Source: Thiothrix litoralis
GTDB taxonomy: Bacteria > Pseudomonadota > Gammaproteobacteria > Thiotrichales > Thiotrichaceae
DNA length: 64,000 nucleotides
Assembly: GCF_017901135.1 (NCBI RefSeq)
Contig: NZ_CP072801.1
Location: 1,302,001 to 1,366,000 of the forward strand
Direction of reading: 5' to 3'
In this document: positions 24,584 to 44,607 of the stretch, in pieces
How the letters are laid out: each line of letters opens with the position of its first letter
Position numbering within the stretch: position 1 is the stretch's first letter
Position numbers and translations under genes: made by a program
Notes under the pieces: model-generated
The model's input: the letters and a program-made list of their open reading frames with translations, nothing else
What the model was told of the DNA's origin: nothing
The model's database searches: none

Positions 24584-24677
24584 GTAATCCGCTTGAGTCT
24601 TGCTAAGATAAGATGATGAATGGACGAATGCTAACATGGATTTGGTCTGTTGTGTTCACTACTAAAAGAGGTGTCTT

Positions 24678-24866
24678 ATGGAAAAGAACGTTGGCAGTAT
24701 GGATAGGAATATCCGTTTCGGTGCAGGGGCTGTCCTGCTGATTTGGGGTCTGGTTTTCAAGGGTGGCATCCTGCTGACCTTGATCGGGATTGTGCTACTC
24801 GCTACTGGCTACTTGAACTTCTGCCCGGCCTATAAGCTGATTGGCATGAATACCGACAAAAAATAA
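24678..24866 (+). CDS. DUF2892 small membrane protein
   Basis: A 62-residue protein of the DUF2892 (YgaP C-terminal-like) family. It has a conserved N-terminus (EKNVGSMDRNIRFGAGAVLL), two short membrane helices and a FCPAYKLIGMNT end, in which the FCP-x-Y motif is typical. Many members stand alone or are fused to rhodanese domains. No rhodanese is adjacent here. It is divergent from trpD. The function is unknown. Confidence 0.85.
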   Translation: MEKNVGSMDRNIRFGAGAVLLIWGLVFKGGILLTLIGIVLLATGYLNFCPAYKLIGMNTDKK

Positions 24867-24953
24867 GCCGATTTCTACTGGCTTGGCTGGCGTCATTTGC
24901 CGCGAGCCAAGCAGTATGCGATATTGCCCGCCATTCATTTGGAAGGATACCGC

Positions 24954-25631: not shown

Positions 25632-25671
25632 CCTATAACCCCATGAGCATCGTGTGGATTCCAGACGATGT

Positions 25672-26598: not shown

Positions 26599-26624
26599 GA
26601 CAAGCTCCTATTCATTCTGACAGG

Positions 26625-28747: not shown

Positions 28748-29790
28748 GCCGCCACTCCTTGTGTCATATGGGTTAATCTCATTCCTTTGGCGTCGAAGTA
28801 ATGGATATGCTTGCTATCATCCCACGTCAGCCCCACTCGATCGCCCACATGAACAGTAGTACGACCATACAAACGCACAATCAATGGCTCTTCCAGTTGA
28901 ACCTTGTCGGGGCGAATGTGTACCAAGGTTTCGTTACCCAATGCTTCGACCAGCACCACTTTACCCGCCAGCAGGCCATCCTCTGGGCTAACCATTTGCA
29001 GGTGTTCGGGGCGAATACCCACCTCCGCCACCTGTGCAGGAAACTGACCGAACAAGCTAGCCGGAGCCACGTTCATTTGTGGCATACCGATGAAACGAGC
29101 CACGAAACGGTTGATCGGCTGATCATACAATTCCAATGGCGTACCCACCTGCTCAATGATGCCATCACGCAGTACGACCACGCGGTCTGCCAGTGTCATG
29201 GCTTCAACCTGATCATGGGTAACGTAAACCGTGGTTGCACCCAATTCGCGGTGTAAGGAAGCAATTTCTACCCGTGTATTACCACGCAAGGCAGCATCCA
29301 GATTGGAAAGCGGCTCATCAAACAGGAATACTTTAGGAGAACGTACAATGGAACGACCAATCGCCACCCGCTGACGCTGACCGCCAGAAAGCGCCTTGGG
29401 CGTGCGTTGCAGATACGCCGTAAGGTTTAGTTTGTCAGCAGCCATCTTCACTTTTTCTTGAATGATGGCGGGGTCAACCTTGGCCAAGCGCAGCGCAAAC
29501 GACATGTTTTCTTCCACCGTCATGTGCGGATACAAGGCATAAGACTGGAACACCATCGCCAGATCACGCTTGGACGGCGGCACTTCCGTAATATCACGCC
29601 CATCCAAAATCAACTGTCCACCATTGATCACTTCCAACCCCGCAATCATGCGCAACAGGGTGGATTTACCGCAACCAGAAGGGCCAACGAACACAATAAA
29701 TTCGCCTGACTGGATCTCCAGGCTGACTTCCTTGATTGCGTGTAATTTACCGTAGTACTTATCTACGCTTTTTAACTCTAAAAATGCCAT
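28744..29790 (-). CDS. mtlK: ABC transporter ATP-binding protein, MtlK/SmoK-like
   Basis: A 348-residue ATPase of the MalK/UgpC subfamily. The Walker A (GPSGCGKST), Q-loop, signature (LSGGQRQRVAIGRS) and Walker B (VFLFDEP) motifs are all intact, followed by a C-terminal OB-type regulatory domain (about residues 240-348). It powers import of the sugar alcohol with the two permeases encoded upstream. The MtlK name rests on operon context. Confidence 0.92.
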   Translation of the reverse strand: MAFLELKSVDKYYGKLHAIKEVSLEIQSGEFIVFVGPSGCGKSTLLRMIAGLEVINGGQLILDGRDITEVPPSKRDLAMVFQSYALYPHMTVEENMSFALRLAKVDPAIIQEKVKMAADKLNLTAYLQRTPKALSGGQRQRVAIGRSIVRSPKVFLFDEPLSNLDAALRGNTRVEIASLHRELGATTVYVTHDQVEAMTLADRVVVLRDGIIEQVGTPLELYDQPINRFVARFIGMPQMNVAPASLFGQFPAQVAEVGIRPEHLQMVSPEDGLLAGKVVLVEALGNETLVHIRPDKVQLEEPLIVRLYGRTTVHVGDRVGLTWDDSKHIHYFDAKGMRLTHMTQGVAA

Positions 29791-29802
29791 ATCCTCTTCC
29801 TC

Positions 29803-30648
29803 CTATTTCACTGCACCAAACGTCAGACCCTGCACCAACTGTTTCTGACTGAACCAACCAAACACCACGATCGGTGCAATGGCCAACACAGAAACGGCCG
29901 ACAATTTGGCCCAGAACAACCCTTCAGGGCTGGAATACGAAGCCACTAACGAAGCCAATGTGCCCGCGTTAGCTGCTGTCAGGTTCAATACCCAGAATGC
30001 CTCATTCCACGACAGCACCAGACACAACAAGCCGGTTGATGCCATGCCACCCATTGCCAGTGGCAGCAAGACATGGCGGAATTCCTCACTCAAACCTGCA
30101 CCATCCATGCGTGCTGCTTCGAGAATTTCAATCGGAATATCCTTGAAGTTGGAATACAACATCCACACCATAATCGGCAGATTCATCATCGTGAAAATAA
30201 TGATCAACGAAATAACGTTATCCAACAGGCCGAATTTCTGGCATAACACGTAGATCGGTAGCAATGCACCCACCGCAGGCATCATTTTGGTGGACAGCAT
30301 CCACATCAAAATATCTTTGGTACGTCTGGTCGGGCTAAACGCCATGCTGTAAGCCGCCGGAACAGCGATGAGCAACCCCAGGATGGTTGAACCCACACTG
30401 GTGATGACGGAGTTCCACGCATAGTCGAAGTAACCACTGCGCTCTTGCACCAGAGCGAAGTTCTCCCATGTTGGTGTAAAAGCCCACACACTAGGGACAG
30501 CAATCGCTTGCAGTTCCGTTTTGAATGCGGTCACAAACATAAACAACAGTGGGAAGAAAATAATAAAGGTGATTGCCCATGCCAACAGCGTGCGTGACGC
30601 TAGTCGCATGTTCCAATCGTATTTGCCGGTTCTGACAGGTTTACTCAT
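29803..30648 (-). CDS. mtlG: ABC transporter permease, MtlG-like
   Basis: A 281-residue inner-membrane permease of the MalG type with six predicted helices. The EAA loop that contacts the ATPase appears as EILEAARMDGAGLSEEFRHV. Its gene starts two bases after the stop of the first permease gene and is followed by the ATPase gene, the usual order of polyol importers (E-F-G-K). Confidence 0.92.
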   Translation of the reverse strand: MSKPVRTGKYDWNMRLASRTLLAWAITFIIFFPLLFMFVTAFKTELQAIAVPSVWAFTPTWENFALVQERSGYFDYAWNSVITSVGSTILGLLIAVPAAYSMAFSPTRRTKDILMWMLSTKMMPAVGALLPIYVLCQKFGLLDNVISLIIIFTMMNLPIMVWMLYSNFKDIPIEILEAARMDGAGLSEEFRHVLLPLAMGGMASTGLLCLVLSWNEAFWVLNLTAANAGTLASLVASYSSPEGLFWAKLSAVSVLAIAPIVVFGWFSQKQLVQGLTFGAVK

Positions 30649-30650
30649 GT

Positions 30651-31535
30651 CTATCGCTCCAAATTCTTGCCGATCATGCGGATCAGGAAAATCGCAACAA
30701 TGTTCGCCAAAACGATGGCCAACAGCGCACCGGCGGAAGCCGCACCCACATCAAAGTTGAGCAGCGCTTCGGTAAAGATCAGGAAGGCCAGATTGGTACT
30801 CTCCGTGCCCGGCCCGCCGCCTGTGGTCGTAAAGATTTCGGCGAAAATACTCAGCAGGAAAATCACCTCAATCATAATCACGACTGAAATGGCCCGCCCC
30901 ATGTGCGGCAGGTACAGGTGGCGTAATTGCTGCCAATAGGTTGCACCATCCAGTTCCGAAGCCTCAAGTTGCTCACGATCCATGGATTGCAGCGAGGTAA
31001 TAAAAATCAGGCAGGCAAACGGTAACCATTGCCAACTAATCATAATGATGATTGACCCCAGCGGCATATCCGTCAGCCAGTCAATCGGCGTCAGGCCAAA
31101 GAATTGCCATATTTGCGCCAACACCCCGTAAATCGGGTTCATCATCATGTGTTTCCACAACAATGCATTCACAGTCGGCATCACAAAAAACGGGGAAATC
31201 AGGAGAATGCGCACCAAGCCTTGCCCCGGAAACGGGTCATTGATCAAGAGCGCCAGTGCTAACCCGAGTACCACCGTAATAATAACCACACTACCCAGCA
31301 AGAGCAGTGTATTCATAACGGCGTCTGTAAATGCAGGGTTGCTAATAAAGAACTCGTAGTTCATCAAACCGACAAAACCGGTTTGATCAGGTTGCATCAA
31401 GTTATAGCGGATGAGGGAAAAATAGATGGTCATGCCGAGCGGCACTATCATCCATAACAGCAGGGTTGCAACAGCGGGGGTCATTAATAGCCGGGGAATC
31501 CAGCGATGACCGGGTGTAGATGAGCGCATAATCAA
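30651..31535 (-). CDS. mtlF: ABC transporter permease, MtlF-like
   Basis: A 294-residue permease of the MalF type. The N-terminus starts a hydrophobic helix near residue 17, and the EAA loop reads EQLEASELDGATYWQQLRHL. It pairs with the downstream permease. The gene is separated from the binding-protein gene by 105 bases that contain a strong stem-loop, which would allow the binding protein to be made in excess. Confidence 0.92.
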   Translation of the reverse strand: MIMRSSTPGHRWIPRLLMTPAVATLLLWMIVPLGMTIYFSLIRYNLMQPDQTGFVGLMNYEFFISNPAFTDAVMNTLLLLGSVVIITVVLGLALALLINDPFPGQGLVRILLISPFFVMPTVNALLWKHMMMNPIYGVLAQIWQFFGLTPIDWLTDMPLGSIIIMISWQWLPFACLIFITSLQSMDREQLEASELDGATYWQQLRHLYLPHMGRAISVVIMIEVIFLLSIFAEIFTTTGGGPGTESTNLAFLIFTEALLNFDVGAASAGALLAIVLANIVAIFLIRMIGKNLER

Positions 31536-31586
31536 GCTCCGTATCTGAGTCTGGACAGATGTTACTTTTTAAGCTTTCGTAACTGT

Positions 31587-31627
31587 GGAATCCCCCTCCT
31601 CAAGGACAGGACTTGAGAAGGGGTTCC
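31587..31627 (-). promoter_or_regulatory. Intercistronic stem-loop between mtlE and mtlF
   Basis: GGAA-CCCCTTCTCAAG pairs with CTTGAGGAGGGG-ATTCC around a seven-base loop, directly after the binding-protein stop codon. There is no T tract on the minus strand. Such stem-loops protect upstream mRNA or partly terminate transcription in importer operons, lifting binding-protein levels above permease levels. That role is inferred. Confidence 0.55.
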
Positions 31628-31640
31628 CAGTGGAGAGAGC

Positions 31641-32960
31641 CTATTTCTTGAAGTAACCCGAACGTTGCATTTCGCGCTCAGCAGAAACCTGTGAGGCTTT
31701 CAATGCATCATCAACAGACATTTTGCCTGCCAGCGCAGAACTCATTTGCTGACCGACTGCGATACCAATAGCTTGGAACTCAGGAATAGCGGCAAACTGT
31801 ACGCCCGTGTAAGGCGACTTGGGCAAGGTGCTATCATTTGGATTGGCACTGTCAATGGCTATTTTCTCTGCACTTGCGAAGACCGCTGCCTTCTGGAAAT
31901 CAGCGTTGGCATAAGTGGAAGCACGTGTACCAGTCGGTACTTTGTTCCAACCTTCTTCCTTGGCAACCAGATTGATGTAGTCCTTGGAAGTAGACCACTC
32001 AATGAACTTTTGAGCTTCGGCGGAGTGCTTGGAAGACTCAGGTATGGCTAGCGCCCATGCCCACAACCAGTTGGCACCTTTAGGCGTGACTTTGGTGGGT
32101 GCTTGTGCGAAAGCCACTTTGTCAGCGACTTTACTTTGTGCTGGGTCAGTGATGAAGGATGCTGCGATGGTGGCATCGACCCACATCCCGCACTTGCCTT
32201 CGTTATACAGCGCGAGGATTTCATTGAAACTGTTGGCAGCAGAACCCGGCGGGCCGTATTTGCCCAGTAGATCAACGTAGAAACCGACAGCATCTTTCCA
32301 AGGTTGGGATTCAAGTTGCGGCTTCCAGTCCATATCGAACCATTGACCACCGAAGGTATTCGCCATGGTAGTGATGAGTGCCATATTGTCACCCCAACCC
32401 GGCTTACCGCGCAGGCAGATACCGTAAATACCGTTATCTTTATCGGTAATTTTAGCGGCAACTTCCGCAACGTGATCCCATGTTGGGTTGTCAGGCATAT
32501 CCATGCCAGCTTTTTCCACCAGATCTTTGCGATACATCAGCATGGAGCTTTCACCGTAGAACGGTGCGGCATACAATTTACCATCAGCAGACAAACCATC
32601 GCGGATGGCAGGCAGAATGTCACCCACATCATAGGCATCATCAAATGTCAGATCCTTGATCCAGCCTTTTTTACCCCAGATAGGGGCTTCGTACATACCG
32701 ATGGTCATGACGTCGAACTGACCACCTTTAGTGGCAATGTCGGTCGTAACACGTTGACGCAGTACACCCTCTTCCAGCGTAACCCATTTGAGTTTGATGT
32801 CAGGATTCGCGTCTTCGAAATGCTTGCTGAGCTTTTGCATTTCAACCATGTGACCATTATTGACGGTCGCAATCACCAGATCAGTGGCTGCGTGAGTAAA
32901 TGTGGCTGACGTCAATAGAATAGCACCGCTAACAGCGGTAAATAGGCGGGTAAATTTCAT
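31641..32960 (-). CDS. mtlE: Polyol ABC transporter substrate-binding protein, MtlE/SmoE-like
   Basis: A 439-residue periplasmic binding protein. The ATG at 32960 starts a clear signal peptide (MKFTRLFTAVSGAILLTSAT) cleaved after THA. The open frame continues upstream but without a start of this quality. The body matches family 1 extracellular solute-binding proteins of the sorbitol/mannitol group (WVTLEEGVLRQRVTTDIATK here in part, and PTWDHVAEVAAKITD). It is the first gene of the operon. A decayed second copy of the same gene and its promoter lies at 41345-41860. Confidence 0.92.
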   Translation of the reverse strand: MKFTRLFTAVSGAILLTSATFTHAATDLVIATVNNGHMVEMQKLSKHFEDANPDIKLKWVTLEEGVLRQRVTTDIATKGGQFDVMTIGMYEAPIWGKKGWIKDLTFDDAYDVGDILPAIRDGLSADGKLYAAPFYGESSMLMYRKDLVEKAGMDMPDNPTWDHVAEVAAKITDKDNGIYGICLRGKPGWGDNMALITTMANTFGGQWFDMDWKPQLESQPWKDAVGFYVDLLGKYGPPGSAANSFNEILALYNEGKCGMWVDATIAASFITDPAQSKVADKVAFAQAPTKVTPKGANWLWAWALAIPESSKHSAEAQKFIEWSTSKDYINLVAKEEGWNKVPTGTRASTYANADFQKAAVFASAEKIAIDSANPNDSTLPKSPYTGVQFAAIPEFQAIGIAVGQQMSSALAGKMSVDDALKASQVSAEREMQRSGYFKK

Positions 32961-33250
32961 ACAACTCCTCCAGTGGCTGTAAAAATCCGGCATCAAAAGT
33001 GATATTTTGATGCAGAAAAATAGAAGCATTCCTCTCAATGCAGATAATAGAGTATCACCAACAACCTGAACACCCTGATACGGTATATAACAATGCTGAT
33101 ACTTTATTGCATTTTTTGACATTTATATAGATTCATTAATGCATAAAAGTTTAGTAGTGAGACTTTCAAGGTTTATTCTTTGAAATTAAGCATATAACAA
33201 CATAACGATAAGCTAATTCAGCCTAACAATAGCCCCCATTGAAGGAGAGG
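32961..33250. repeat. Divergent mtlE-xylB control region, copy 1 of a duplicated segment
   Basis: Nearly the whole intergenic region reappears at 41566-41860 with scattered substitutions. The best conserved block is about 33026-33102 and includes GCATTCCTCTCAATGCAG and CGGTATATAACAATGCTGAT. It contains the mtlE leader, a candidate -10 (TATTAT on the minus strand, 33044-33049) and a 21-bp-spaced direct repeat. Confidence 0.8.
33075..33102 (-). promoter_or_regulatory. Candidate AraC-type activator site upstream of mtlE
   Basis: The minus strand carries GTATCAG at 33102-33096 and again at 33081-33075, a direct repeat with a 21-bp period as expected for an AraC dimer. It sits 26 bases upstream of a TATTAT -10 candidate (33044-33049). 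The same repeat with the same spacing is kept in the second copy at 41681-41708. The link to the AraC-family gene at 25672-26598 is inferred. Confidence 0.5.
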
Positions 33251-33255
33251 ACATC

Positions 33256-34704
33256 ATGTATATCGGTATCGATATCGGCACATCGGGTGTAAAAACGTTA
33301 CTCATGAATGAGCAACAAACCATTATCGGCTCAGCACATGCTGGGCTAAGTGTTACCCGCTTGCATTCTGGCTGGTCGGAACAACATCCGGCGGACTGGA
33401 TCAGCGCAACACAAACCACCTTGGACACGCTTGCCCAACAGTTCCCCGCTGCAATGGCGGCAGTCCGAGGGCTGTCATTGTCTGGGCAGATGCACGGTGC
33501 GACCCTGTTAGATAAAGATCATCAAGTATTGCGCCCCTGCCTCTTGTGGAACGATACCCGCAGCCATCTGGAAGCCGCCGCGCTAGATGCCAACCCGTTG
33601 TTTCGCCAGATGTCCGGGAACATCGTTTTTCCGGGCTTTACTGCCCCCAAATTGCTGTGGGTGAAGCACCACGAACCCGCCATTTTCGATCAGGTAGCGC
33701 AAGTCCTGTTACCCAAGGATTATGTACGCCTGTGGCTAACCGGCGAAACGGTGTCGGATATGTCGGATGCGTCCGGGACGTCATGGCTCGATGTCGCCGG
33801 ACGCTGCTGGTCGGATGAATTGCTGGCTGCCAGCAGTATGCAACGCAGCCAAATGCCACGTTTGGTGGAAGGCACTGAAAACAGCGGCGCGTTGCGTACT
33901 GTACTGGCTAAACGTTGGGGGATGCAGCAATCGCCGCTGGTGGCCGGTGGCGCAGGTGACAATGCGGCCTCGGCTTGCGGCATGGGAGTTGTACAAGCGG
34001 GTAGCGCTTTTGTTTCGCTGGGAACATCCGGGGTGCTGTTTGCGGCTAATGCCACGTATCTACCGAATCCCGGCAGTGCGGTACACGCTTTTTGCCATGC
34101 CATACCGGATACCTGGCATCAGATGGGGGTTATCCTCTCAGCAACCGATGCCTTGAACTGGTATGCAGGCATTACCGCTATTCCCGCTGCGGCCTTGACC
34201 GCTGCGTTGGGGGAACACCTGAGCGCCCCCAGTGGCATCACCTTCCTGCCTTACCTGTCTGGGGAACGTACCCCGCATAATGATGCCACCATTCGGGGGG
34301 CATTCATCGGCCTTGAACACCAGCACACCCGGCAACACCTGACGCAGGCTGTCTTGGAAGGCGTTGCTTTTGCCATTCGCGATAATCTGGGAGCACTGAA
34401 TGCCGCTGGTACTAATCTGCAACGGCTGACGGCTGTCGGGGGTGGTTCAAAATCGCATTACTGGCTGCGCCTGATCGCTACCGTACTGAACCTACCAGTC
34501 GATATTCCCGCAGATGGGGATTTCGGCGGGGCTTTCGGGGCGGCAAGGTTGGCATTGATTGCCGCCAATAATGCTGACCCGCTGAGCGTTTGCCAACCAC
34601 CGCCGATTAAACAGAGCATCGCCCCACAATCAGCGTTAACGGTAGCCTATGAAGATGCCTACCAACGTTACCGAGCTGTTTATCCGCTCCTGAAGCAGCG
34701 TTAA
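33256..34704 (+). CDS. xylB: Xylulokinase
   Basis: A 482-residue FGGY-family carbohydrate kinase. The N-terminal phosphate-binding motif is YIGIDIGTSGVKTLLM, followed by the xylulokinase-typical SLSGQMHGATLLD. A second motif (GGGSKSHYWLRLIATVLNLP) lies in the C-terminal domain. It converts D-xylulose to xylulose 5-phosphate, the step after D-arabitol oxidation. It is transcribed divergently from the importer operon across a 295-bp shared control region and corresponds to mtlY of the Pseudomonas mannitol cluster. GGAGAGG precedes the ATG. Confidence 0.94.
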   Translation: MYIGIDIGTSGVKTLLMNEQQTIIGSAHAGLSVTRLHSGWSEQHPADWISATQTTLDTLAQQFPAAMAAVRGLSLSGQMHGATLLDKDHQVLRPCLLWNDTRSHLEAAALDANPLFRQMSGNIVFPGFTAPKLLWVKHHEPAIFDQVAQVLLPKDYVRLWLTGETVSDMSDASGTSWLDVAGRCWSDELLAASSMQRSQMPRLVEGTENSGALRTVLAKRWGMQQSPLVAGGAGDNAASACGMGVVQAGSAFVSLGTSGVLFAANATYLPNPGSAVHAFCHAIPDTWHQMGVILSATDALNWYAGITAIPAAALTAALGEHLSAPSGITFLPYLSGERTPHNDATIRGAFIGLEHQHTRQHLTQAVLEGVAFAIRDNLGALNAAGTNLQRLTAVGGGSKSHYWLRLIATVLNLPVDIPADGDFGGAFGAARLALIAANNADPLSVCQPPPIKQSIAPQSALTVAYEDAYQRYRAVYPLLKQR

Positions 34705-34854
34705 TAGCGACAAGCGTATTCACGGCTCGAGCACGCTAACATGATACAACGGGTTAGTTTATCTAACCCATACCTCAATTTATTCTCACTTGTTGCAGTG
34801 CAGCATCAAGAGTAGAGTGACCCCATCAAGAACATTCCAATAGAGGAAATAATT

Positions 34855-35040
34855 ATGTTTAGCATTCCAACCATCATCGTTAATTTATGGGCATTTTGTA
34901 AAACAGAAGTAAGCATTTACAAAACCATTAACACATTGCGTGCGTTTAGTGATCGCGAATTAGAAGACCTGGGATTATCCCGCTTTACTCTGCAAGATGC
35001 AGTGCGCAATGGTCGTAAGAATCAGGAGCTTTTCAGATAA
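34855..35040 (+). CDS. DUF1127 small protein
   Basis: A 61-residue protein. The C-terminal half has the DUF1127 signature (LRAFSDRELEDLGLSR), usually Arg-rich and involved in RNA binding or stress adaptation in other bacteria. The N-terminal half is hydrophobic (SIPTIIVNLWAFCKTE). It has its own 150-bp upstream region and an AGAGGAAAT ribosome site. It converges with the eda operon. Confidence 0.8.
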   Translation: MFSIPTIIVNLWAFCKTEVSIYKTINTLRAFSDRELEDLGLSRFTLQDAVRNGRKNQELFR

Positions 35041-35096
35041 AAAAAGCCCCCTCTCGGAGGAGAGGAGGTAACTGAGGAGTCGTAAAAGAAACTGTT

Positions 35097-35141
35097 AAAA
35101 AGACCCCTCCCTTATGAATGACTCAACATAAGGGAAGGGTT
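35097..35141 (-). terminator. Terminator of the porin-frk-zwf-edd-eda operon
   Basis: On the minus strand, ACCCTTCCCTTAT pairs with ATAAGGGAGGGGT (one bulge) and is followed by CTTTTT. It lies about 90 bases after the eda stop. Confidence 0.7.
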
Positions 35142-35146
35142 AACCA

Positions 35147-35177
35147 GAGCCGTTAAACCAGACTATCCTAACGGCTC
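35147..35177. repeat. Perfect 9-bp inverted repeat after eda
   Basis: GAGCCGTTA pairs with TAACGGCTC across 13 bases. It lies just before the terminator on the minus strand and may add stability to the transcript end. Confidence 0.45.
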
Positions 35178-35226
35178 CAATGTCCAGAAAAGTAGAGGAG
35201 TCGACTCAATACCTGACTGTGGACAT

Positions 35227-35853
35227 TCAGGCCACTTTAACCAATTCGCAGTTAAAGCGGGCAATGCTTTCAATACCTGCCCAGTCATGGGCGAGAACTT
35301 TATCTTCCGGGGTCAACCACGAACCACCCACACACAATACATTGGGTAATGCCAAGTATTCGCGAATGGTTTGCACGCTAATGCCACCGGTTGGGCAGAA
35401 ACGCACATCAGGCAAAGGCCCATGGATGGATTTCAACATTTTCACCCCACCCGCTGCTTCAGCCGGGAAAAACTTCAGGGTGTCATAGCCACGTTCCAGC
35501 AATTTCATCACCTCGGATACCGTTGCAGCACCGGGCAATAGCAGCAAACCTTCATCTTCTGCCGCCGACAGCAAGCTATCGGTGACACCGGGCGACACCG
35601 CAAAACTGGCACCTGCCGCTTTCACCGCTTTCACATCAGCCGGGGTCAACACCGTGCCCGCGCCGACGATACTGCCAGGCACTTCACTCATGCGACGGAT
35701 CACTTCCAAGGCCGCCGAGGTACGCAAAGTCACTTCCAGCACATGCAGGCCACCGCTGACCAATGCCTGCGCCAAGGGCTGGGCAAGCGTGGCATCATGA
35801 ACGACCAGCACCGGAATGACCGGCACTTGCTGGCAAATACTTCTAATTGACAT
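35227..35853 (-). CDS. eda: KDPG (2-keto-3-deoxy-6-phosphogluconate) aldolase
   Basis: A 208-residue TIM-barrel aldolase. The Schiff-base Lys lies in DTLKFFPAEAAGG and the catalytic Glu in VLEVTLRTSAAL. The phosphate-binding segment FCPTGGIS is also present. It cleaves KDPG to pyruvate and glyceraldehyde 3-phosphate, the last step of the Entner-Doudoroff route. Its start is two bases after the edd stop codon. Confidence 0.96.
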   Translation of the reverse strand: MSIRSICQQVPVIPVLVVHDATLAQPLAQALVSGGLHVLEVTLRTSAALEVIRRMSEVPGSIVGAGTVLTPADVKAVKAAGASFAVSPGVTDSLLSAAEDEGLLLLPGAATVSEVMKLLERGYDTLKFFPAEAAGGVKMLKSIHGPLPDVRFCPTGGISVQTIREYLALPNVLCVGGSWLTPEDKVLAHDWAGIESIARFNCELVKVA

Positions 35854-35855
35854 GG

Positions 35856-37691
35856 TTATGCCCTCTCTGTATCAGTAAACAGGGCACTTGCCCCACTCGC
35901 GGCGGCGCTGACATGCGAACGGAAAACCTGAAACAGTTCCCGCCCACAACCAGAGCCGTTGGCACTCAAATCCACACTGACTGGTGCACGTTCTGCAAAC
36001 CCTGCTGTCAGCACTTCCAGATGACCGTTATCCACATCCAGTCGGATCAAATCGCCATCACGGATTTTGGCTATTGCGCCCCCATCCATCGCCTCTGGGC
36101 TGACATGAATAGCCGCCGGAACTTTGCCGCTGGCTCCTGACATTCTGCCATCCGTGACCAGCGCGACGTGTTGCCCACGATCCTGCAACAAGCCCAACAC
36201 TGGCGTCAGGCCGTGCAACTCCGGCATTCCATTGGCTTTTGGCCCCTGAAAACGCACCACACACACAAAATCCCCTTGCAGCTCACCCGCCTCAAACGCA
36301 GCTTTAACCGCTGCCTGATCGTGGAAAACCTTCGCCGGGGCTTCAATCAGGTGTTTATCCGGCTTAACTGCCGACACCTTGATAACCGAATCGCCCAGAT
36401 TGCCCAATAACCGCACCAAACCACCGGAAGGTTGGAACGGCTGGACAACCGGGCGTAAAACGTCCGTATCATGGCTGGTGCTCGCACCTTCGCGCCATGT
36501 AACGGTTCCATCTGCTGCCAGCACGGCTTCTTGCGTATAGTGATGCAAGCCCTTCCCGGCAACAGTGTCTACTTCTTCATGCAATAGCCCCGCCGCCAAC
36601 AATTCGCGGATCACGAACTGCAAGCCACCGGCCGCATGGAAATGGTTCACGTCCGCCACCCCGTTGGGGTAGACCCGCGCTATCAGCGGGGTAATCGCGG
36701 ACAAATCAGCAAAATCTTCCAGACACAGTACAATGCCCGCCGCCCGCGCCATCGCCACCAAATGCAACAGCAAATTGGTCGAGCCACCGGTGGCGTTCAA
36801 GCCAACAATGCCGTTCACAAACGCATTGACCGTGAGGATGTTGGCAGCAGGCGTGTAATCCTGCCCCTTTGCCGTCATCGCTAACGCACGCTGCGCACCC
36901 GCAACCGTCAAGGCTTCGCGCAACGACGTACCCGGATTGACAAAACTGCTACCGGGCAATTGCAAACCCATGAATTCCATCAACATCTGGTTGCTGTTCG
37001 CCGTGCCGTAGAACGTGCAAGTACCCGCGCCGTGGTAGGATTGCATTTCAGCTTGCAGCAATTCCGCACGCCCCACTTTGCCCTCAGCGTATTGCTGGCG
37101 CACTTTGGATTTCACATCATTCGCCAGCCCCGACACCATCGGGCCTGCGGGCAGGAAAATGCACGGTAAATGCCCAAAACTAGCCGCTGCGATCACTAAC
37201 CCCGGCACAATCTTGTCGCATACCCCCAGAAAAGCGGCAACATCAAACACATTGTGTGACAAGGCAACGGCGGCACTCATGGCGATCACATCGCGGGAAA
37301 ACAAGGATAATTCCATGCCCTCCTGCCCTTGCGTTACCCCATCACACATCGCGGGAACGCCCCCGGCAACCTGAGCGGTTCCGCCGACTTCACGCACGGC
37401 CGCCTTGATCAGGTCGGGGTAGTAAACGAAGGGCTGGTGCGCCGACAGCATGTCGTTGTATGCGGTGACAATACCCAGATTGCCCGCTGTCCATTCCACC
37501 AGTTTCAGCTTGTCCGCATTGGGAACGGCGGCGACTGCATGTGCCAGATTGCCGCAACTCAGCTTGCTGCGCGGGGTCACGGGGTTAGCCGCTGCCACTT
37601 GCTGCAAGTAAGCCGCACGGCTCGCCGCACTACGAGCTTCAATGCGCTGAGTGACTGCCACTAATTGTGGGTGAAGCGTGTGATGACTCAT
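35856..37691 (-). CDS. edd: 6-Phosphogluconate dehydratase
   Basis: A 611-residue IlvD/Edd-family enzyme of standard length. Iron-sulfur ligands are visible in [17 protein letters not shown] and [11 protein letters not shown], and the C-terminal domain has [20 protein letters not shown]. It dehydrates 6-phosphogluconate to KDPG. The gene overlaps zwf by four bases. Confidence 0.96.
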
Positions 37692-39160
37692 GATTCGATC
37701 TCCCGCCAGCGGCGTCCGTCGCGTGCCATCATTTCAATGGCAGAAATAGGGCCGGAAGTACCCGGATCGTAGCCATCAGGCTTTCTACCGGATAATTGCC
37801 ATGCCTCGATGATGGGGTCTATCCATTGCCACGCGGCTTCCACTTCATCACCACGCATGAACAGGGTTTGGTTGCCGCGTACTACATCCATCAGTAAACG
37901 TTCGTAAGCATCCGGCATCCGCCAGTCCTCGTTCTGACCTTCCGCAAAGGCCATATCCAGTGGAATGTCGTGCAGACGAAAACCACCCGGCCCCGGTTCC
38001 TTGGTCATGATATGCAGGCGCAGACCTTCATCTGGCTGCAAACGCATGGTCAAGACATTGGGGAGAATCGGCGTCGGCAGATCACCAAACATGAGGTGTG
38101 AAGGCTGTTTGAAGACCACCGCAATTTCGGCGGATTGCGCTTTCAAACGCTTGCCGGTACGTAAATAAAAGGGCACGCCTGACCACCGCCAACTATCAAT
38201 CTCGACTTTCAACGCAACATACGATTCGGTCATACTGGCGGGATTTCCCACTTCTTGGATATAAGCAGGAGAGGAGGAGCTTGCCAAATATTGTCCGCGA
38301 ACCGTATGGTCGAGAACTTTTCGCCCGGAGAGAGGGCGCAGGGAACGCAGTACCTTCAACTTTTCATCGCGGACTGCATCCGCCTCAAAACGATAGGGCG
38401 GCTCGATAGCGATCAGGCAGAGCAACTGCAACAGGTGATTTTGCACCATATCGCGGATAGCACCAGCGGTATCGTAATAGCCACCGCGCGAACCGACACC
38501 GAGGGACTCGGCGGCAGTAATTTGCACATGGTCAATACACTGAGCATTCCAGACAGGCTCAAACAAAGCATTGGCAAAGCGCAGTGCCATCAGGTTCTGC
38601 ACGGTTTCTTTGCCAAGATAATGGTCGATGCGGTAAATGGCGTGCTCGTCAAACACCTCACCAACTTGCGCATTCAATAAGGCGGCGCTGGCATGGTCAT
38701 GCCCCAAAGGCTTTTCCAACACCAGACGGGCATTGTTACCCGCCAACCCTGCGCCTGCCAAGCCGTGGGAAATAGCGCTGAACAAGGCGGGCGCTACCGC
38801 CAGATAATAAATACGAATCCGTTCCGGGCAAGTATCCAGAATGGTTGCCAGTGACTGAAAGCTGGCGGGGCTCATCAGATCCACTGCATGGTATTCCAAG
38901 CGCTCTAGAAAACGCGCCAGAGTTTCCGCTTGAGCCTCAACCGCACGTAAATGGGTTTGCAGGGCATCAGCAACCTGTGCACGGTATTCCTCAAGCGTTT
39001 GGTGGTCTAATGCCAACGCAATAATACGGGCTTGTGGCGGAATTTGTCCGACAGCATCGCGACGGAACAAAGCGGGCAATAACTTGCGTAAGGCCAGATC
39101 CCCCGTGCCACCAAAAATAACCAGATCAAAGACCTCAACCGGAATAATGACATGACTCAT
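37688..39160 (-). CDS. zwf: Glucose-6-phosphate dehydrogenase
   Basis: A 490-residue enzyme. The NADP-binding start [20 protein letters not shown] and the active-site motif [19 protein letters not shown] are intact. It oxidises glucose 6-phosphate to the 6-phosphoglucono-lactone and makes NADPH. The next step (6-phosphogluconolactonase, pgl) is not encoded in this operon, so it must be elsewhere or spontaneous. The gene overlaps both neighbours by four bases. Confidence 0.96.
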
Positions 39161-40128
39161 ACAAGTAATTCCTCTGGATAATCAGCAAGTGCCAACTCGA
39201 CTTCTTTAGCCGATGGCAGATCAGCCCCTTGGCGTGAACAGGTAATGGCAGCAGCACACGCCGCTTTATGCCCAATACGCTGCAAGGTTGATGCTGTTAA
39301 TGCTGCTACCCAATCAGCCGTATTGGCTTGTAAATCCAGCAAACTGTCTAATAACGACGCTTGGAAAGTATCCCCAGCGCCAACGGTATCCACCACGTTG
39401 ACACGCGGGGTTGGCAAGGTCACTTGCGCCTGTTGGCTCCACAACGACGCACCTTCACTGCCACGGGTTAACGCTGCAAGTTTTACGCCAACCGCCAACC
39501 AGTCGGCGATAATGCTTTCGGGTGCAATACCGGGGTATAAGGCTGCCAAATCTTCATCACTGACTTTGACAACATCCATAAAGGGCAACAATTGGGTGAT
39601 ACGCTCACGCCATTGGTGCACATCTGGCTCGACCGTCAAACGAATATTCGGGTCAAGTGACAACAAACACTTGCCCGCTTGTCGACGAGCAAGTGCCAGC
39701 AAGGTATCCGCTGTGGGGGCAACCACCAACGAATACGACCCCATGTGAATACCTGTTACCTCGGTGTCATCAAAGGCAATATCTGCCGGGGCTAATAGCC
39801 GATCGGCAGCACCTTCACCGTAAAACGCATAGTTGGGCACGCCCACGGCGTTTTTCTGGATGAAACCCAAGGTCGTCGGCGCGGCTTTACGGGCAATGAA
39901 ATCGGTAGATACCTGCTCCGCTTGCAGCACCGCCATCAAGCGGTCACCTAAAAAATCGGTGGAAACACCGGTCAATAACGCAACGGTCTGCCCCAGACGG
40001 CGCAGACCAATCGCAACATTGAACGGTGAACCACCGGCTCGCGCCGCAAACGGTACAGCAAATGCTGATTGACTCACCCCTTCCGGGACAAACACATCAA
40101 ACAACGCCTCACCACAAACAACAAACAT
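39157..40128 (-). CDS. PfkB-family sugar kinase, probable fructokinase
   Basis: A 323-residue ribokinase-fold kinase. The N-terminal Gly-rich motif GGSPFNVAIGLRRLG and the C-terminal catalytic motif DTVGAGDTFQASLLD are intact. In the Pseudomonas mannitol cluster the equivalent gene (mtlZ) phosphorylates fructose made from mannitol. The product fructose 6-phosphate would be isomerised to glucose 6-phosphate for Zwf. Specificity for fructose is inferred from the operon. Confidence 0.88.
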   Translation of the reverse strand: MFVVCGEALFDVFVPEGVSQSAFAVPFAARAGGSPFNVAIGLRRLGQTVALLTGVSTDFLGDRLMAVLQAEQVSTDFIARKAAPTTLGFIQKNAVGVPNYAFYGEGAADRLLAPADIAFDDTEVTGIHMGSYSLVVAPTADTLLALARRQAGKCLLSLDPNIRLTVEPDVHQWRERITQLLPFMDVVKVSDEDLAALYPGIAPESIIADWLAVGVKLAALTRGSEGASLWSQQAQVTLPTPRVNVVDTVGAGDTFQASLLDSLLDLQANTADWVAALTASTLQRIGHKAACAAAITCSRQGADLPSAKEVELALADYPEELLV

Positions 40129-40140
40129 GGGGTAGTTTCC

Positions 40141-41178
40141 TTAGAAGGCGTAATCGAAACGCATACGGACGGCATTCAGCTTGTCATCCTTGACCACATT
40201 ATCGGCTTGAGATGTATTGGCAGCGAACGTGACGGTAGCATCTTTCACACTAAACAGCGGCACGGTGTAGGTAGCATATAAAGTATTGACTTTGGGTTTG
40301 GCAGCAGCGCCATTATCGGTGGTGGAATTAATCCAGCCACCCCCCAATCCCCCACGCTTCATGTTTACCCCGAATGAGGTGACATCCGCATCAGCCACGC
40401 CGGTACTTTTTTCCTTCAGCCGGGAAACACTGGCATTTACATCTGCCGTACCCACTTTGAATGCTGCGCCAAGGCCGATACCATTCTGGGTCAACTTGGT
40501 AGTAGCGCTAGCCTTGTCGGACACACTTTCAAAACCTGCGTGCAGGGTCGTATTGCCGACTTTGTATTGCAGCGCCGGACGAACCCCGGTGAAGCTGTCA
40601 TTACTACCGGTTTTATTCGCCATCAGCCCCATTTCCAGCTTGAGCTGGTCAGACGGGTTGGAATGCAGCGCAACGTGCAGCACGTCATCTTTACGACCGC
40701 GTACCTTGTTGGCTTCATAGACTTTGGCTTCTCCCGCCCCGGCATGGGTGATGAGGGTATCGTTACCTAGTGGAAACAGATTGAAGGCTTCAAAGCGCCC
40801 GATTTGCGCATCCCACTTCTCACGCCCCATTTGCAGGTATACATCTTCGTACTGCATATCGTTCCCTTGGAAGGGCACTAAGGGTTGCGCTACGCCTTTG
40901 ATGAAGTAATCTTCACCTTTGATTTCACCGACAGCATTGAGCTTGATACGCCCGCCGTGGGTGAAATTGCCACCCGAATCACCACTAGCATCATCGGTAG
41001 CCGCGTTATAAACGGTAAAACCAGACCCACCATCATCCGCTGTAATGTCTAATTGGACATCACCGCCAATGGTAAAGGTTTTACTGGGGGAAGCTGCTGC
41101 ATCTGCTGCCATTGCGCCAGCACTCATCAACAAAACAGCCAAACTACTGACAACACTCAACCGAACACTCGTTTTCAT
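40141..41178 (-). CDS. Outer-membrane carbohydrate porin
   Basis: A 345-residue outer-membrane protein. A signal peptide (MKTSVRLSVVSSLAVLLMSA, then GAMAAD) precedes a beta-barrel with alternating strands and the usual C-terminal aromatic residue (MRFDYAF). Residues 40-70 are rich in Asp, Gly and Ser and probably form an external loop. It heads the operon with fructokinase and the Entner-Doudoroff enzymes and so probably admits the sugar alcohol or sugar. The substrate is not visible in the sequence. Confidence 0.85.
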   Translation of the reverse strand: MKTSVRLSVVSSLAVLLMSAGAMAADAAASPSKTFTIGGDVQLDITADDGGSGFTVYNAATDDASGDSGGNFTHGGRIKLNAVGEIKGEDYFIKGVAQPLVPFQGNDMQYEDVYLQMGREKWDAQIGRFEAFNLFPLGNDTLITHAGAGEAKVYEANKVRGRKDDVLHVALHSNPSDQLKLEMGLMANKTGSNDSFTGVRPALQYKVGNTTLHAGFESVSDKASATTKLTQNGIGLGAAFKVGTADVNASVSRLKEKSTGVADADVTSFGVNMKRGGLGGGWINSTTDNGAAAKPKVNTLYATYTVPLFSVKDATVTFAANTSQADNVVKDDKLNAVRMRFDYAF

Positions 41179-41206
41179 TGCACTTACCTACTGTGTTACT
41201 ATAAGT

Positions 41207-41224
41207 GCGCTCATTACTGAGCGC
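41207..41224 (-). promoter_or_regulatory. Small hairpin in the porin leader
   Basis: GCGCTCA pairs perfectly with TGAGCGC across four bases, ending about 28 bases before the porin start codon on the minus strand. It may affect translation or mRNA stability. Confidence 0.4.
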
Positions 41225-41228
41225 TAAG

Positions 41229-41302
41229 GGCGCAGTTCGCCTCGGCCAAGTGGCGGGGAGTACCAGTCCCATCCACTTGCTCCAATGCCGAAGCGAACTG
41301 CC
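41229..41302. repeat. Long imperfect inverted repeat upstream of the porin gene
   Basis: The arms GGCGCAGTTCGCCTCGGC and GCCGAAGCGAACTGCC, plus the inner pair AAGTGG/CCACTT, could form one stem of about 30 bp with a short loop. It lies between the decayed mtlE copy and the porin gene. It could be a repeat element, an attenuator or an mRNA stabiliser. Confidence 0.6.
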
Positions 41303-41344
41303 ATTTACTTTAAAGTCGGATTACACTGCCACAGCGGGCTTTGA

Positions 41345-41565
41345 AGCAATCCGAATGTTGCATTTCGCGCTCAGCAGAAACCTGTGAGGCTTTCATTGAA
41401 ACGATTGGAAGAAGAGTCCGGTGGGTCGTAGTTATCCATCAGCCCAACATCGCCTTTAGTGGAGATGCCGACGGCAACAACCAGCCCAGTGGCTGCGTGA
41501 GCGAGTGTGGCTGACGCCAACAGAATAGCACCGCTAATAGCGGCAAAAAGACGGGTAAATTTCAT
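41345..41565 (-). pseudogene. Decayed second copy of mtlE (binding protein)
   Basis: The first 24 codons encode a signal peptide almost identical to that of MtlE (MKFTRLFAAISGAILLASAT). At the other end, 41351-41397 is almost identical in bases to the mtlE 3' end (31657-31706), encoding the KASQVSAEREMQ region but in another frame. About 1.1 kb between the two ends is gone. The residual 64-codon frame has no binding-protein body. The orientation and order relative to the duplicated promoter are kept. Confidence 0.85.
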
Positions 41566-41860
41566 ACAGCTCTCCTCCGGTGGCTGTAAAATCCCACATC
41601 GGAAGTGATATTCTGATGCAGAAAAATATAAGCATTCCTCTCAATGCAGATAATAGAGTATCACCAATAATCCGAGCATCCTGATACGGTATATAACAAT
41701 GCTGATACTCTATTTCCGTTTTTAATGATTTGTATTGATCTGTTAATGCATAGAAGTTTAGCCGTGAGGGTTTTGGGGTTTATCCTTTAAAATTAAGTAT
41801 ATAACAACATAATAATAATCTAATTATCTATACTAATAATCCCCACTTAACCAGATTAAA
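41566..41860. repeat. Copy 2 of the mtlE control region, now upstream of the porin operon
   Basis: The sequence matches 32961-33250 throughout, with substitutions, up to the point where xylB would begin. The candidate -10 (minus-strand TATTAT, 41650-41655) and the 21-bp direct repeat are kept. It probably drives transcription through the mtlE remnant into porin-frk-zwf-edd-eda. Confidence 0.8.
41681..41708 (-). promoter_or_regulatory. Candidate AraC-type activator site, second copy
   Basis: GTATCAG occurs on the minus strand at 41708-41702 and 41687-41681, with the same 21-bp period as upstream of mtlE. Sequence between and around the repeats is conserved as well. Confidence 0.5.
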
Positions 41861-41880
41861 TATTAATCATTGGGTGAAAA

Positions 41881-43248
41881 TCACGACTCAATCGGCTCCA
41901 TCACCATTCGTCCCACCTCGCTTTCCACCGCGACAATCACGCCACGCAGAGAATTCGGTTGGGCTTCGGTAATACGCACATCTACAAATTTCCCGATCAG
42001 GCGCGGATGCCCGTCGAAATTGACCACGCGGTTATTTTCAGTGCGCCCCGCCATCTGATCGTGTTTACGGGATGGGCGTTCCACCAACACCCGTTGCACC
42101 GTGCCAACCATTGCCGCGCTGATGGCGTTGGATTGCGCCAGAATGCGGGTTTGCAGGTGTTGCAAGCGGTCTTTTTTCACTGACTGCGGCACATCATCCG
42201 CCAGACTCGCGGCAGGAGTGCCGGGGCGCTGACTGTAGATAAAGCTGAAACTCAGGTCGAAGTTCATCTCTTCAATCAGCTTCATGGTATCGGCAAAATC
42301 CTGCTCGGTTTCACCGGGAAAACCAATGATGAAGTCGGATGACAAGCTGAGCGTCGGGCGGATTTTGCGTAACTTGCGGATTTTGGCTTTGTATTCAATC
42401 GCCATGTGGTTGCGCTTCATCGCCATCAAAATCCGGTCAGAACCGCTTTGCACCGGCAAATGCAGGTGATTCACCAGTTCTGGCACATCCTCATACACCT
42501 GAATCAGGTTGTCATTGAATTCATTGGGGTGCGAGGTGGTGTAACGGATACGGTCGATACCATCCACGGCTGCCACAAACGTAATCAGCATCGCCAGATC
42601 GGCAATCGAACCGTCGTGCATTTTACCGCGATAGGCATTCACGTTTTGCCCCAGCAAATTGACTTCGCGCACACCCTGCGCCGCGAGCTGGGCAATTTCG
42701 GTAATCACATCATCGAAGGGACGGGAAATTTCTTCGCCACGGGTGTAGGGAACCACGCAGAACGTACAATATTTGCTGCACCCTTCCATCACCGATACGA
42801 ACGCGGTGGGGCCGTCAGCACGCGGTTCTGGCAAGTTGTCGAACTTTTCGATTTCGGGGAAAGAAATATCCACCACCGGGTGATGTTCCGTGCGCACTTG
42901 ACGGATCATGTCCGGCAAACGGTGCAAAGTTTGCGGGCCGAACACCACATCCACCACCGGGGCGCGTTGGCGCAAGGCTTCACCTTCCTGACTGGCGACA
43001 CAGCCGCCGACACCGATGACAATGTGCGGACGTTTATCTTTAAGCTTTTTCCAACGTCCCAATTGTGAGAAGACTTTTTCCTGCGCCTTTTCGCGGATCG
43101 AGCAGGTATTCATTAATAAGACATCGGCCTCTGCGGGGTCATTGGTGAGTTCCATTCCCTGTGCATGGTGCAGCACGTCCAGCATTTTGGCTGAGTCGTA
43201 CTCGTTCATTTGACATCCGTGGGTTTCGATAAAAATTTTGCCTGCCAT
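41881..43248 (-). CDS. miaB: tRNA-2-methylthio-N6-dimethylallyladenosine synthase
   Basis: A 455-residue methylthiotransferase of the usual length. The N-terminal UPF0004 domain begins [20 protein letters not shown]. The radical-SAM cluster motif is CSKYCTFC near residue 157, and a TRAM domain ends the protein. It adds methylthio to i6A37 in tRNAs that read UNN codons. In many gammaproteobacteria miaB is followed by phoH and ybeY; here it is followed by the duplicated mtlE control region instead. Confidence 0.96.
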
Positions 43249-43399
43249 GTGTCCGTTTTGTCCGTCGTTTGAGCATTTGGAAAACAGCTATTATCCCCGC
43301 TCTCCCGAAAGCAAACAACTTTTCGCGAAAACAGACTAAAATTGTGAGTGTAATGCCCGCAAGGGACACTTCAGTCTACAAGAGGATAAGGAATACACC

Positions 43400-43888
43400 A
43401 TGAAAGCGATTTCATTCTTCCCGGCAATGGCCTTGGCTTTAACACTGAGCGTATCCAGCGCACAAGCAGCAACTGACGTGTATGTCGTAAGTGGTGTGCA
43501 AAGCGGTCAATTCTTGAATATGCGCAGCAATGCAGGCACTGGCAACACGGTTACTGGCAGGATTCCGTCCAACGGCCAAGGTATCGTCACCACGGGCGAA
43601 CAAAAAAAGATCAATGGTTCAGTCTGGGCAAAGGTTTACTGGAAAGGCAGCGGCGGCTGGGTCAATAAAAGCTACTTGTCCCCCGCCAACCAAAAGACCA
43701 CTGTTGCACCACCGGCAAAACCCCAAGCCACTGTTGCACCACCGGCAAAATTTGTTATGTCTGTGATGGCTCCGTACAAAGTTACTACGCCACCCATGAT
43801 GCCGTCGGTGAAAGTGCCGTCTTACATGACCCCACCCAAACCGTTAATACCGTCTTACATGATCCCACCCAAACCGTTAGGCAAGTAA
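43400..43888 (+). CDS. Secreted bacterial SH3 (SH3b) protein with Pro/Met-rich repeats
   Basis: A 162-residue exported protein. The signal peptide (KAISFFPAMALALTLSVSSA) ends at QA. One SH3b-type domain covers about residues 24-98 (DVYVVSGVQSGQFLNMRSNA, GWVNKSYLSPAN). The C-terminal 65 residues are low complexity, with repeats of the TVAPPAKPQ and PSYMxPPKPL types. SH3b domains bind peptidoglycan or surface ligands. It is a paralogue of the next gene; the first 98 residues of both are very similar and the tails are unrelated. A hairpin (GCCTGACT/AGTCAGGC, near 43916-43934) lies between them. Confidence 0.8.
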   Translation: MKAISFFPAMALALTLSVSSAQAATDVYVVSGVQSGQFLNMRSNAGTGNTVTGRIPSNGQGIVTTGEQKKINGSVWAKVYWKGSGGWVNKSYLSPANQKTTVAPPAKPQATVAPPAKFVMSVMAPYKVTTPPMMPSVKVPSYMTPPKPLIPSYMIPPKPLGK

Positions 43889-43962
43889 TCAACAATCGTC
43901 AATATTTAAGTGTCATGCCTGACTAACAGTCAGGCAACCATAGATAACTCAAGGAACAAACC

Positions 43963-44607
43963 ATGAAAGCGTTTTCATTCTTCCCGGCGATGGCCTTGGC
44001 ATTGACCCTGAGCCTCTCCAGCGTACAAGCAGCAACTGATGTGTATGTCGTAAGCGACGTGCCATCAGGAGACTTCCTGAATATGCGTACTGGCGCAGGT
44101 GTCAGCAATGCCATTACCGGCAGAATCCCGTCCAACGGCCAAGGCGTCGTTACCACGGGTGAAGAAAAAAAGGTCGGCAGCACTGTGTGGGCGAAAGTGT
44201 ATTGGAACGGCGTAGGTGGTTGGGTCAGCAAGCGCTACCTGCTACCGGCAAATCAAGCCAGCAAAGCACCGGCGGCAGTCGTGCCACCCGTGAAAGCGCC
44301 CACCACCAACGTACTGGTTTGCACAGGCACAGAACCCTTCTGGCGCATTGATGTTAGCGATGCCACCCTGAAGGTCAATATGTCAGATGGCCCGCAGTAC
44401 ACCGTACCCGTAACCTTCCGCCAAACATCAGCGAATAACACCACCATCGCCGTGATTGGCGGCGCAACCGGCACCAACAATACCCAAGCATTCATGCAAA
44501 AAGTAGACAGTTGCAGCGATGGCATGTCGGAGGTGAAATACCCTTACAGCATCACCGCCGTGTTGAATAACAAGCAGGTGGTATCGGGTTGCTGTAAGGT
44601 GCAGTAG
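43963..44607 (+). CDS. Secreted SH3b protein with C-terminal COG3650-like domain
   Basis: A 214-residue exported protein. The signal peptide and SH3b domain (residues 1-98) are nearly identical to the paralogue just upstream. After an Ala/Pro linker, residues 115-214 start VLVCTGTEPFWRIDV and contain four cysteines, two adjacent at the end (SGCCKVQ). The GTEPFW segment is typical of COG3650-like domains found in small envelope proteins. The function is unknown. A clear terminator follows at 44617-44641. Confidence 0.8.
   Translation: MKAFSFFPAMALALTLSLSSVQAATDVYVVSDVPSGDFLNMRTGAGVSNAITGRIPSNGQGVVTTGEEKKVGSTVWAKVYWNGVGGWVSKRYLLPANQASKAPAAVVPPVKAPTTNVLVCTGTEPFWRIDVSDATLKVNMSDGPQYTVPVTFRQTSANNTTIAVIGGATGTNNTQAFMQKVDSCSDGMSEVKYPYSITAVLNNKQVVSGCCKVQ

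Follow-up and report, generated by a model that had tools for sequence, protein, structure and literature searches.

Probable capture of a porin and Entner-Doudoroff operon by a duplicated polyol-importer promoter in Thiothrix litoralis and Thiothrix lacustris

What is a decayed copy of a polyol-binding protein gene, together with its upstream region, doing in front of a porin and Entner-Doudoroff operon? The question is raised by the chromosome of Thiothrix litoralis, a single contig of 4,284,843 bp, in which we analyzed a stretch of 64,000 nucleotides (hereafter the window). Two gene sets run there on the minus strand, namely a polyol operon, mtlE-F-G-K-D-SDR-mtlR (32960 down to 25672), and porin-frk-zwf-edd-eda (41178 down to 35227), the latter with the copy ahead of its first gene. 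The first-pass annotation of this DNA proposed that the duplication had recruited the promoter of the polyol importer for the porin operon. The main features are as follows.

25672-26598, minus strand: AraC-family regulator gene, the MtlR candidate, last gene of the polyol operon (HTH_18, 2.1e-22)
31641-32960, minus strand: intact mtlE-like polyol-binding protein gene (best PDB match 4rya, a sorbitol-type binding protein)
32961-33255: original divergent promoter region of mtlE and xylB
33256-34704, plus strand: xylB, xylulokinase, divergent from mtlE
35227-35853, minus strand: eda, KDPG aldolase
35856-37691, minus strand: edd, phosphogluconate dehydratase
37688-39160, minus strand: zwf, glucose-6-phosphate dehydrogenase
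39157-40128, minus strand: frk, PfkB-family, fructokinase-like (best NCBIfam model fructokinase, 124.7 bits, below its cutoff of 450)
40141-41178, minus strand: porin gene (Porin_8, RafY-like), first gene of the putatively captured operon
41341-41565, minus strand: decayed mtlE copy (start and signal-peptide codons, internal fragment 41386-41433, 3' end 41341-41398)
41566-41855, minus strand: copied mtlE/xylB intergenic region (PmtlE copy; counting block 41566-41805, blastn homology to 41825, weaker to 41855)
41881-43248: miaB, on the far side of the copy segment

Direct-repeat families, a DNA search of the own genome and blastn identify minus-strand positions 41341-41825, with weaker similarity on to 41855, as a second copy of the mtlE/xylB intergenic region and of pieces of mtlE, located ~8.6 kb from the original in the same island and oriented like the porin operon. 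In the repeat analysis, the upstream region is 89% identical to the original over 136 nt and 73% identical over the next 142 nt; blastn aligns copy and original at 84% over 353 bp (41474-41825). The statement of the first-pass annotation that the signal-peptide codons, the 3' end and the upstream region of mtlE are repeated here with the gene body missing is borne out by the repeat families and blastn, the remnant measuring 225 bp (41341-41565) against 1,320 bp for the intact gene, most of the body of which is missing. The 3' end (41341-41398) is 93% identical to mtlE positions 31648-31705, and an internal fragment that this inventory had overlooked (41386-41433) is 79% identical to positions 32214-32261. 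From the old start codon, the remnant keeps a 64-codon open frame in both T. litoralis and T. lacustris. The description of the promoter copy as intact was too strong, given that copy and original differ at 35 of the 237 aligned positions of the 240-bp block that precedes the start codon; what is identical in all four sequences of the two species is a run of 38 bp and another of 21 bp. That the copy points into porin-frk-zwf-edd-eda, as also claimed, holds: both lie on the same strand, and the operon is tightly packed.

Chance repetition was rejected because the promoter part of the copy is found in the own genome at E = 1.8e-105 and most of the segment recurs in T. lacustris at 96% identity. 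Identity of the remnant with a dispersed repeat was likewise rejected: the own-genome DNA search with the copy returned four places, the segment itself and three source pieces at the mtlE locus. As a separate observation, positions 43400-44607 hold two tandem, related secreted-protein-like genes that derive from duplication (75% over 300 nt), and a 33-bp tandem repeat lies at 43817-43879 within the region of this gene pair.

Among 40 genomes searched, the remnant DNA was found in two, the own genome (G000) and that of T. lacustris DSM 21227 (G012), at the same locus in both; the other 38 whole genomes gave no match at E <= 0.001. Bases 1-472 of the 526-base query recur in T. lacustris at 96% identity, and a duplicate private to the T. 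litoralis strain was rejected, T. lacustris carrying the same copy. The miaB gene is present in all 16 Thiothrix genomes, and we read its neighborhood in each of them, retaining tblastn matches at E <= 1e-8 with at least 30% query coverage. In T. litoralis and T. lacustris, the order is miaB-PmtlE copy-remnant-porin-frk-zwf-edd-eda. Two relatives, G008 and G010, have miaB, an opposite-facing ROK-family gene some 0.26 kb (G008) or 1.4 kb (G010) away, and next to it frcB-frcC-frcA-porin-frk-zwf-edd-eda-glk, with additional importers beyond. Another two (G001, G006) have miaB-zwf-edd-eda followed by the trpD side; in four (G004, G005, G013, G014) miaB adjoins the trpD side with no genes of the island in between; and the remaining six showed neither island genes nor trpD within the stretch fetched. 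The miaB-trpD stretch, 23561-43248 in the window, is a variable sugar-metabolism island in ten of the 16 Thiothrix genomes, where it may be empty, carry zwf-edd-eda alone, or be of the frcBCA or the polyol type. Four of 26 genomes have the porin and two of 16 have frcB, the latter not being found in T. litoralis or T. lacustris; the loci fetched from the 14 relatives showed no PmtlE-like sequence at E <= 0.01. The genes downstream are orthologous by position, porin-frk-zwf-edd-eda following miaB at the same place in T. litoralis, T. lacustris, G008 and G010, and the possibility that the Entner-Doudoroff operon of the latter two resides elsewhere on the chromosome was rejected, the locus being the same miaB-trpD stretch.

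A fructose importer of the FrcBCA kind consists of a ribose-type binding protein, a permease and a single-domain ATPase. The importer of G008 and G010 has these components: FrcB is a Peripla_BP_4 protein, the permease FrcC belongs to BPD_transp_2, and FrcA is a 272-aa ATPase that matches only the first half of the two-domain sugar ATPase models. No NCBIfam model for any of the three scored above its cutoff among the matches listed, and we use the name frcBCA because the neighboring gene is fructokinase-like. The first-pass annotation had held that an intact second binding-protein gene at this position in relatives, under independent control, would speak against its reading. Such a gene is indeed present, frcB being intact there in G008 and G010, but it comes from another family (Peripla_BP_4, as against SBP_bac_1 for the mtlE homolog) and has been displaced, and it therefore counts in favor of a control switch, not against one.

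The junction between the remnant and the porin operon retains a trace of the displaced genes, in two adjoining features.

41179-41320, minus strand: porin leader, 142 bp, homologous in G008, G010 and T. lacustris (hairpin 41232-41301, palindrome 41207-41224)
41321-41340, minus strand: vestige of the 3' end of an frcA-like ATPase gene (last codons and stop), fused to the mtlE remnant

In all four porin-bearing genomes, the homology of the leader extends across the frcA stop codon into the final codons of that gene. Positions 41321-41340 agree with the frcA tail of G008 or G010, whichever fits better, at 15 of 20 bases, a level reached at one of the 127,960 positions of the window (both strands), and the 3' end of mtlE lies directly upstream of this vestige. 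When the miaB-porin stretch of G010 was compared by blastn with the window and with T. lacustris, each comparison gave a single match region, beginning within frcA. With an frcA tail at the junction, the lineage must formerly have had frcA at this locus. A second trace comes from glgC, which follows eda in T. lacustris and lies further downstream in G008 and G010; it was not seen at the island of the window, where a 112-bp vestige of the pre-glgC region is found at 34754-34865 (72%, E = 1.6e-5), and the two observations together point to an ancestor of the G008/G010 type. In a miaB+trpD tree of the ten of 16 genomes that have trpD in the fetched stretch, T. litoralis and T. lacustris group with a support of 0.99, whereas inner supports of 0.54-0.67 leave the order of clades unresolved, so that the ancestral state is read from the frcA and glgC vestiges and not from the tree. 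On the anatomy of the locus, the ROK gene, the frcBCA importer and the region ahead of frcB have evidently been replaced by the mtlE promoter copy and remnant. Within the 240-bp promoter block, remnants and originals differ at 33-35 positions, far more than the copies (5) or the originals (15) differ between the species, and hence the duplication and the deletions are shared; they either predate the split of the species or were exchanged between them.

Stretches of 38 bp (TTGGTGATACTCTATTATCTGCATTGAGAGGAATGCTT) and 21 bp (CATTGTTATATACCGTATCAG) are identical across the four upstream sequences, two originals and two copies; of 5000 column shuffles, 33 attained the length of the longest stretch. 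The following candidate site, which we infer to be bound by MtlR, lies in the copy.

41681-41708, minus strand: candidate activator site, a direct repeat GTATCA(G) with 21-bp spacing, the same as 33075-33102 before mtlE

At a tolerance of up to 3 mismatches, the 27-mer operator pattern occurs at exactly two places in T. litoralis and two in T. lacustris, and its reversed control gave 0 matches. By eye, the GTATCA repeats end just ahead of a weak -35 and a TATTAT -10 element, an arrangement typical of AraC-type activators, whose site abuts the promoter. The MtlR site of Pseudomonas fluorescens, given in the available part of its description as AGTGC-N5-AGTAT-N7-AGTGC-N5-AGGAT (PMC4514859), has no match as a whole, its first half being approximated, by eye, only before mtlE of the window and not in the copy. 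The mtlR query returned three matches in 16 genomes (T. lacustris left aside), the own gene and two partial ones at 34-36%; the T. lacustris protein is 94% identical to the MtlR candidate. A plasmid-borne homolog, 41.9% identical, lies inside a binding protein-permease-permease-regulator-dehydrogenase-ATPase cluster, the binding protein of which is 59% identical to MtlE; in a look for a shared operator among plasmid homologs that covered four of the 12 listed records, the one promoter read by eye carries a 21-bp-spaced repeat as well, but with another sequence and too weak to use. A hairpin followed by a T run, as in a terminator, was not found in the porin leader; the one weak terminator-like site of the segment (41529-41545) has a counterpart in intact mtlE.

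Taken together, the scar, the relatives and the shared promoter core make it probable that a promoter switch occurred at this sugar-catabolism island, with the frcA-side stretch replaced by the mtlE copy and the operon now under the mtlE promoter copy and MtlR. By comparison with the relatives, an frcA-like gene once stood just before porin-frk-zwf-edd-eda in the lineage of T. litoralis and T. lacustris, as it does in G008 and G010; mtlE, duplicated along with the entire region upstream of it, has taken the place of the frcA-side stretch, and the same large part of the copied gene is gone from both species. Transcription of the porin operon would start at the mtlE promoter copy and be activated, like that of mtlEFGKD, by MtlR in response to a common polyol signal. 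The remnant would serve as a passive leader, and the cell would produce fructokinase and the Entner-Doudoroff enzymes at the same time as the polyol importer and the dehydrogenases that supply their substrates. Recruitment by a duplicated promoter, as first proposed, is the best-supported reading, apart from the promoter being intact, and gains from the ROK gene and frcBCA at the same position in relatives.

Such a coupling would have a metabolic rationale. The polyol genes should produce a keto sugar; fructose derived from mannitol or sorbitol would require fructokinase, and frk is the only PfkB-type candidate found with the frk query in the genome (sole match at E <= 1e-8). Matches to Frk occur in ten of 16 genomes, six of them weak (28-31% identity) and left out of the fructokinase count, and matches to MtlE in five of 26, three of them weak (26-30%). 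With the frcBCA-like importer lost, polyols may be a main source of internal fructose, and placing frk and the Entner-Doudoroff genes under a polyol switch would therefore be useful. In excerpts of the respective reports, frk mutants of Sinorhizobium meliloti do not grow on mannitol or sorbitol (PMC10433430), and the MtlR-activated operon of P. fluorescens includes the fructokinase MtlZ and a xylulokinase (PMC4514859). The identity of the polyol is less certain than the name mannitol implies: the best PDB match of the dehydrogenase of the polyol operon is 1lj8, a mannitol dehydrogenase, the protein scores above the NCBIfam cutoff for D-arabinitol 4-dehydrogenase, and T. litoralis AS is reported to be mannitol- and sorbitol-negative. 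If D-arabitol were the true substrate, the link would be looser, with xylulose routed via xylB and pentose phosphates. The accessible portions of two species descriptions list T. litoralis AS as negative for mannitol and sorbitol and positive for fructose, and T. lacustris as negative for all three (PMC8570282, PMC9319827); this reported non-use of mannitol and sorbitol does not fit simple polyol control. No paper on the locus was among the matches listed for the open-access literature on sugar and polyol use in Thiothrix, and the word "Entner" is absent from the available text of PMC8570282.

Divergence between T. litoralis and T. lacustris (all p values from uncorrected tests) offers a view of constraint on the copy. 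The promoter copy differs at 5 of 240 positions, less than the original block (15/238, p = 0.023), the fourfold sites of frk-zwf-edd-eda (50/864, p = 0.018), those of nine genes (144/1825, p = 0.00045) and those of miaB alone (20/212, p = 0.0007). It does not differ from the fourfold sites of frk alone (5/175, p = 0.75) or significantly from the coding part of the remnant (11/227, p = 0.13), and the low divergence of the copy may thus partly reflect a locally low rate, substitution rates varying along the region as the counts for frk and miaB show. The coding part of the remnant itself evolves at the rate of the fourfold sites of frk-zwf-edd-eda (p = 0.75), and the original mtlE promoter block is indistinguishable from the nine-gene yardstick (p = 0.44). 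A contrast between promoter core and distal part of the paralogous copies was significant in two of four pairings (p = 0.0018 and 0.019; the others 0.096 and 0.21). The porin, with 47 of 151 fourfold differences, was excluded from the nine-gene yardstick as an outlier; because of this high divergence, its inclusion would only widen the contrast. The low divergence is suggestive of constraint on the promoter copy without proving it, its significance depending on the yardstick. As an observation in its own right, the porin gene (40141-41178) is far more divergent than its neighbor frk, as if it had been exchanged or diversified.

The main rival of the promoter switch holds that the operon runs from a promoter of its own in the porin leader, older than the replacement, with the mtlE copy a decaying passenger. 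The 142-bp leader is homologous in the four porin-bearing genomes, all of which (4/4) have TATA(G/T)T about 25 bp before the porin start. Its hairpin covaries: 4 of 30 pairs are changed on both sides while kept, 2 of 120 cells are unpaired, and compensatory changes of this extent were reached in four of 500 shuffles, further pair types being not unusual (122/500). The palindrome at 41207-41224 is identical in four Thiothrix genomes, occurring once in the window and otherwise only in leader-bearing loci, and the use of fructose and not mannitol reported for T. litoralis AS in the available part of PMC8570282 also speaks for this rival. Hairpin and palindrome could possibly be an RNA element or an operator; Rfam yielded no family at gathering score in leader or remnant (search of 31400-43400) and none at E <= 1 in 41170-41860. 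However, in G008 and G010 the leader sits between frcA and porin within an apparent single operon, where the hairpin can have other reasons; a scan found no sigma-70-like site on its minus strand (nor any in the mtlE promoter); the leader as a whole is not conserved beyond fourfold sites (15/159 vs 50/864, p = 0.11); and a leader promoter would leave the low divergence of the copy unexplained. We regard this alternative as unlikely, yet as deserving serious attention.

It is quite improbable that the segment is neutral debris, the importer and promoter having been removed, the operon expressed weakly or not at all, and the copy kept by chance over a short time. The decay of the remnant coding part at about the fourfold rate would agree with this, as would the local variation of rates that makes the copy unremarkable against frk, but frk, zwf, edd and eda have full open frames with 0.8-2.9% amino-acid changes between the two species, and the copy is less divergent than the fourfold sites of miaB and the nine-gene yardstick. 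Still further from credible, to our mind, is selection of the 64-codon frame as a short secreted or leader peptide for which the promoter is kept. Both species do retain the start codon, the signal-peptide codons and the frame, with GGAGGAG visible by eye ahead of the start; against this, 11 of 227 positions differ, a rate no different from fourfold sites, and, counted by eye, 5 of the differences are nonsynonymous changes in the 64-codon frame, the signal peptide accounting for 4 of them. As an RNA, the remnant (41330-41655) folds no better than shuffled sequences (z = -0.42).

The promoter switch bears on a peculiarity of T. lacustris, in which the polyol operon is split, mtlE-F-G lying on one contig and mtlK-D-SDR-mtlR on another. 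Upstream of mtlK are genes for a Mu-type portal (4.1e-91) and Mu F (1.5e-24); beyond mtlG, past several genes with no Pfam match, comes one whose 1,696-aa product has a transglycosylase domain and weakly matches a tail-tube model (27.3 bits against a cutoff of 27). The two contigs may join through one prophage. Both mtlR (94%) and the captured promoter copy are retained. If the polyol operon is indeed dead in T. lacustris, MtlR may be kept for the captured operon. A regulator that outlives its first operon in this way, kept mainly for the captured porin-fructokinase-Entner-Doudoroff genes and handed over complete via a decayed gene copy, is a speculative and rather doubtful extension of the promoter switch.

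The event proposed here would be a natural promoter capture, a kind of event already known, and its record is unusually complete. Regulator changes of operons are usually inferred after their traces have vanished, whereas here an ancestral-type order, a scar, a decaying passenger and a derived order are seen at one locus. As the genus has cultured members, the sequence of duplicating a promoter, replacing the old control and losing the passenger gene becomes directly testable, and the locus suggests how a sulfur bacterium might have rewired its sugar use after the loss of a dedicated importer.

In the long-term evolution experiment with Escherichia coli, citT was reportedly captured by the rnk promoter through duplication. 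The two cases are alike in that duplication puts a resident gene behind the promoter of another gene; the Thiothrix capture differs in being natural, common to two species and joining biochemically linked pathways. A further comparable system is the mannitol operon mtlEFGKDYZ of P. fluorescens, which, as presented in the available part of PMC4514859, is under MtlR-PmtlE, with importer, dehydrogenase, xylulokinase and fructokinase all under one AraC-type activator. In the window, the published MtlR binding motif is unmatched as a whole, and the fructokinase gene belongs to a separate operon with the porin and Entner-Doudoroff genes, which would have joined the regulon by promoter duplication. 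Regulatory switching in bacteria by replacement of upstream regions and horizontal regulatory transfer (Oren et al. 2014, cited in PMC5890482) resembles the Thiothrix case, as far as described in the excerpts of the latter source, in that an upstream region is swapped for a non-homologous one with the downstream genes conserved. Unlike there, the incoming Thiothrix region was copied from a site ~8.6 kb distant within the island itself and brought along a whole gene, since decayed; the stretch is also without the ROK-family gene and the importer, and the ancestral-type and derived states are both visible.
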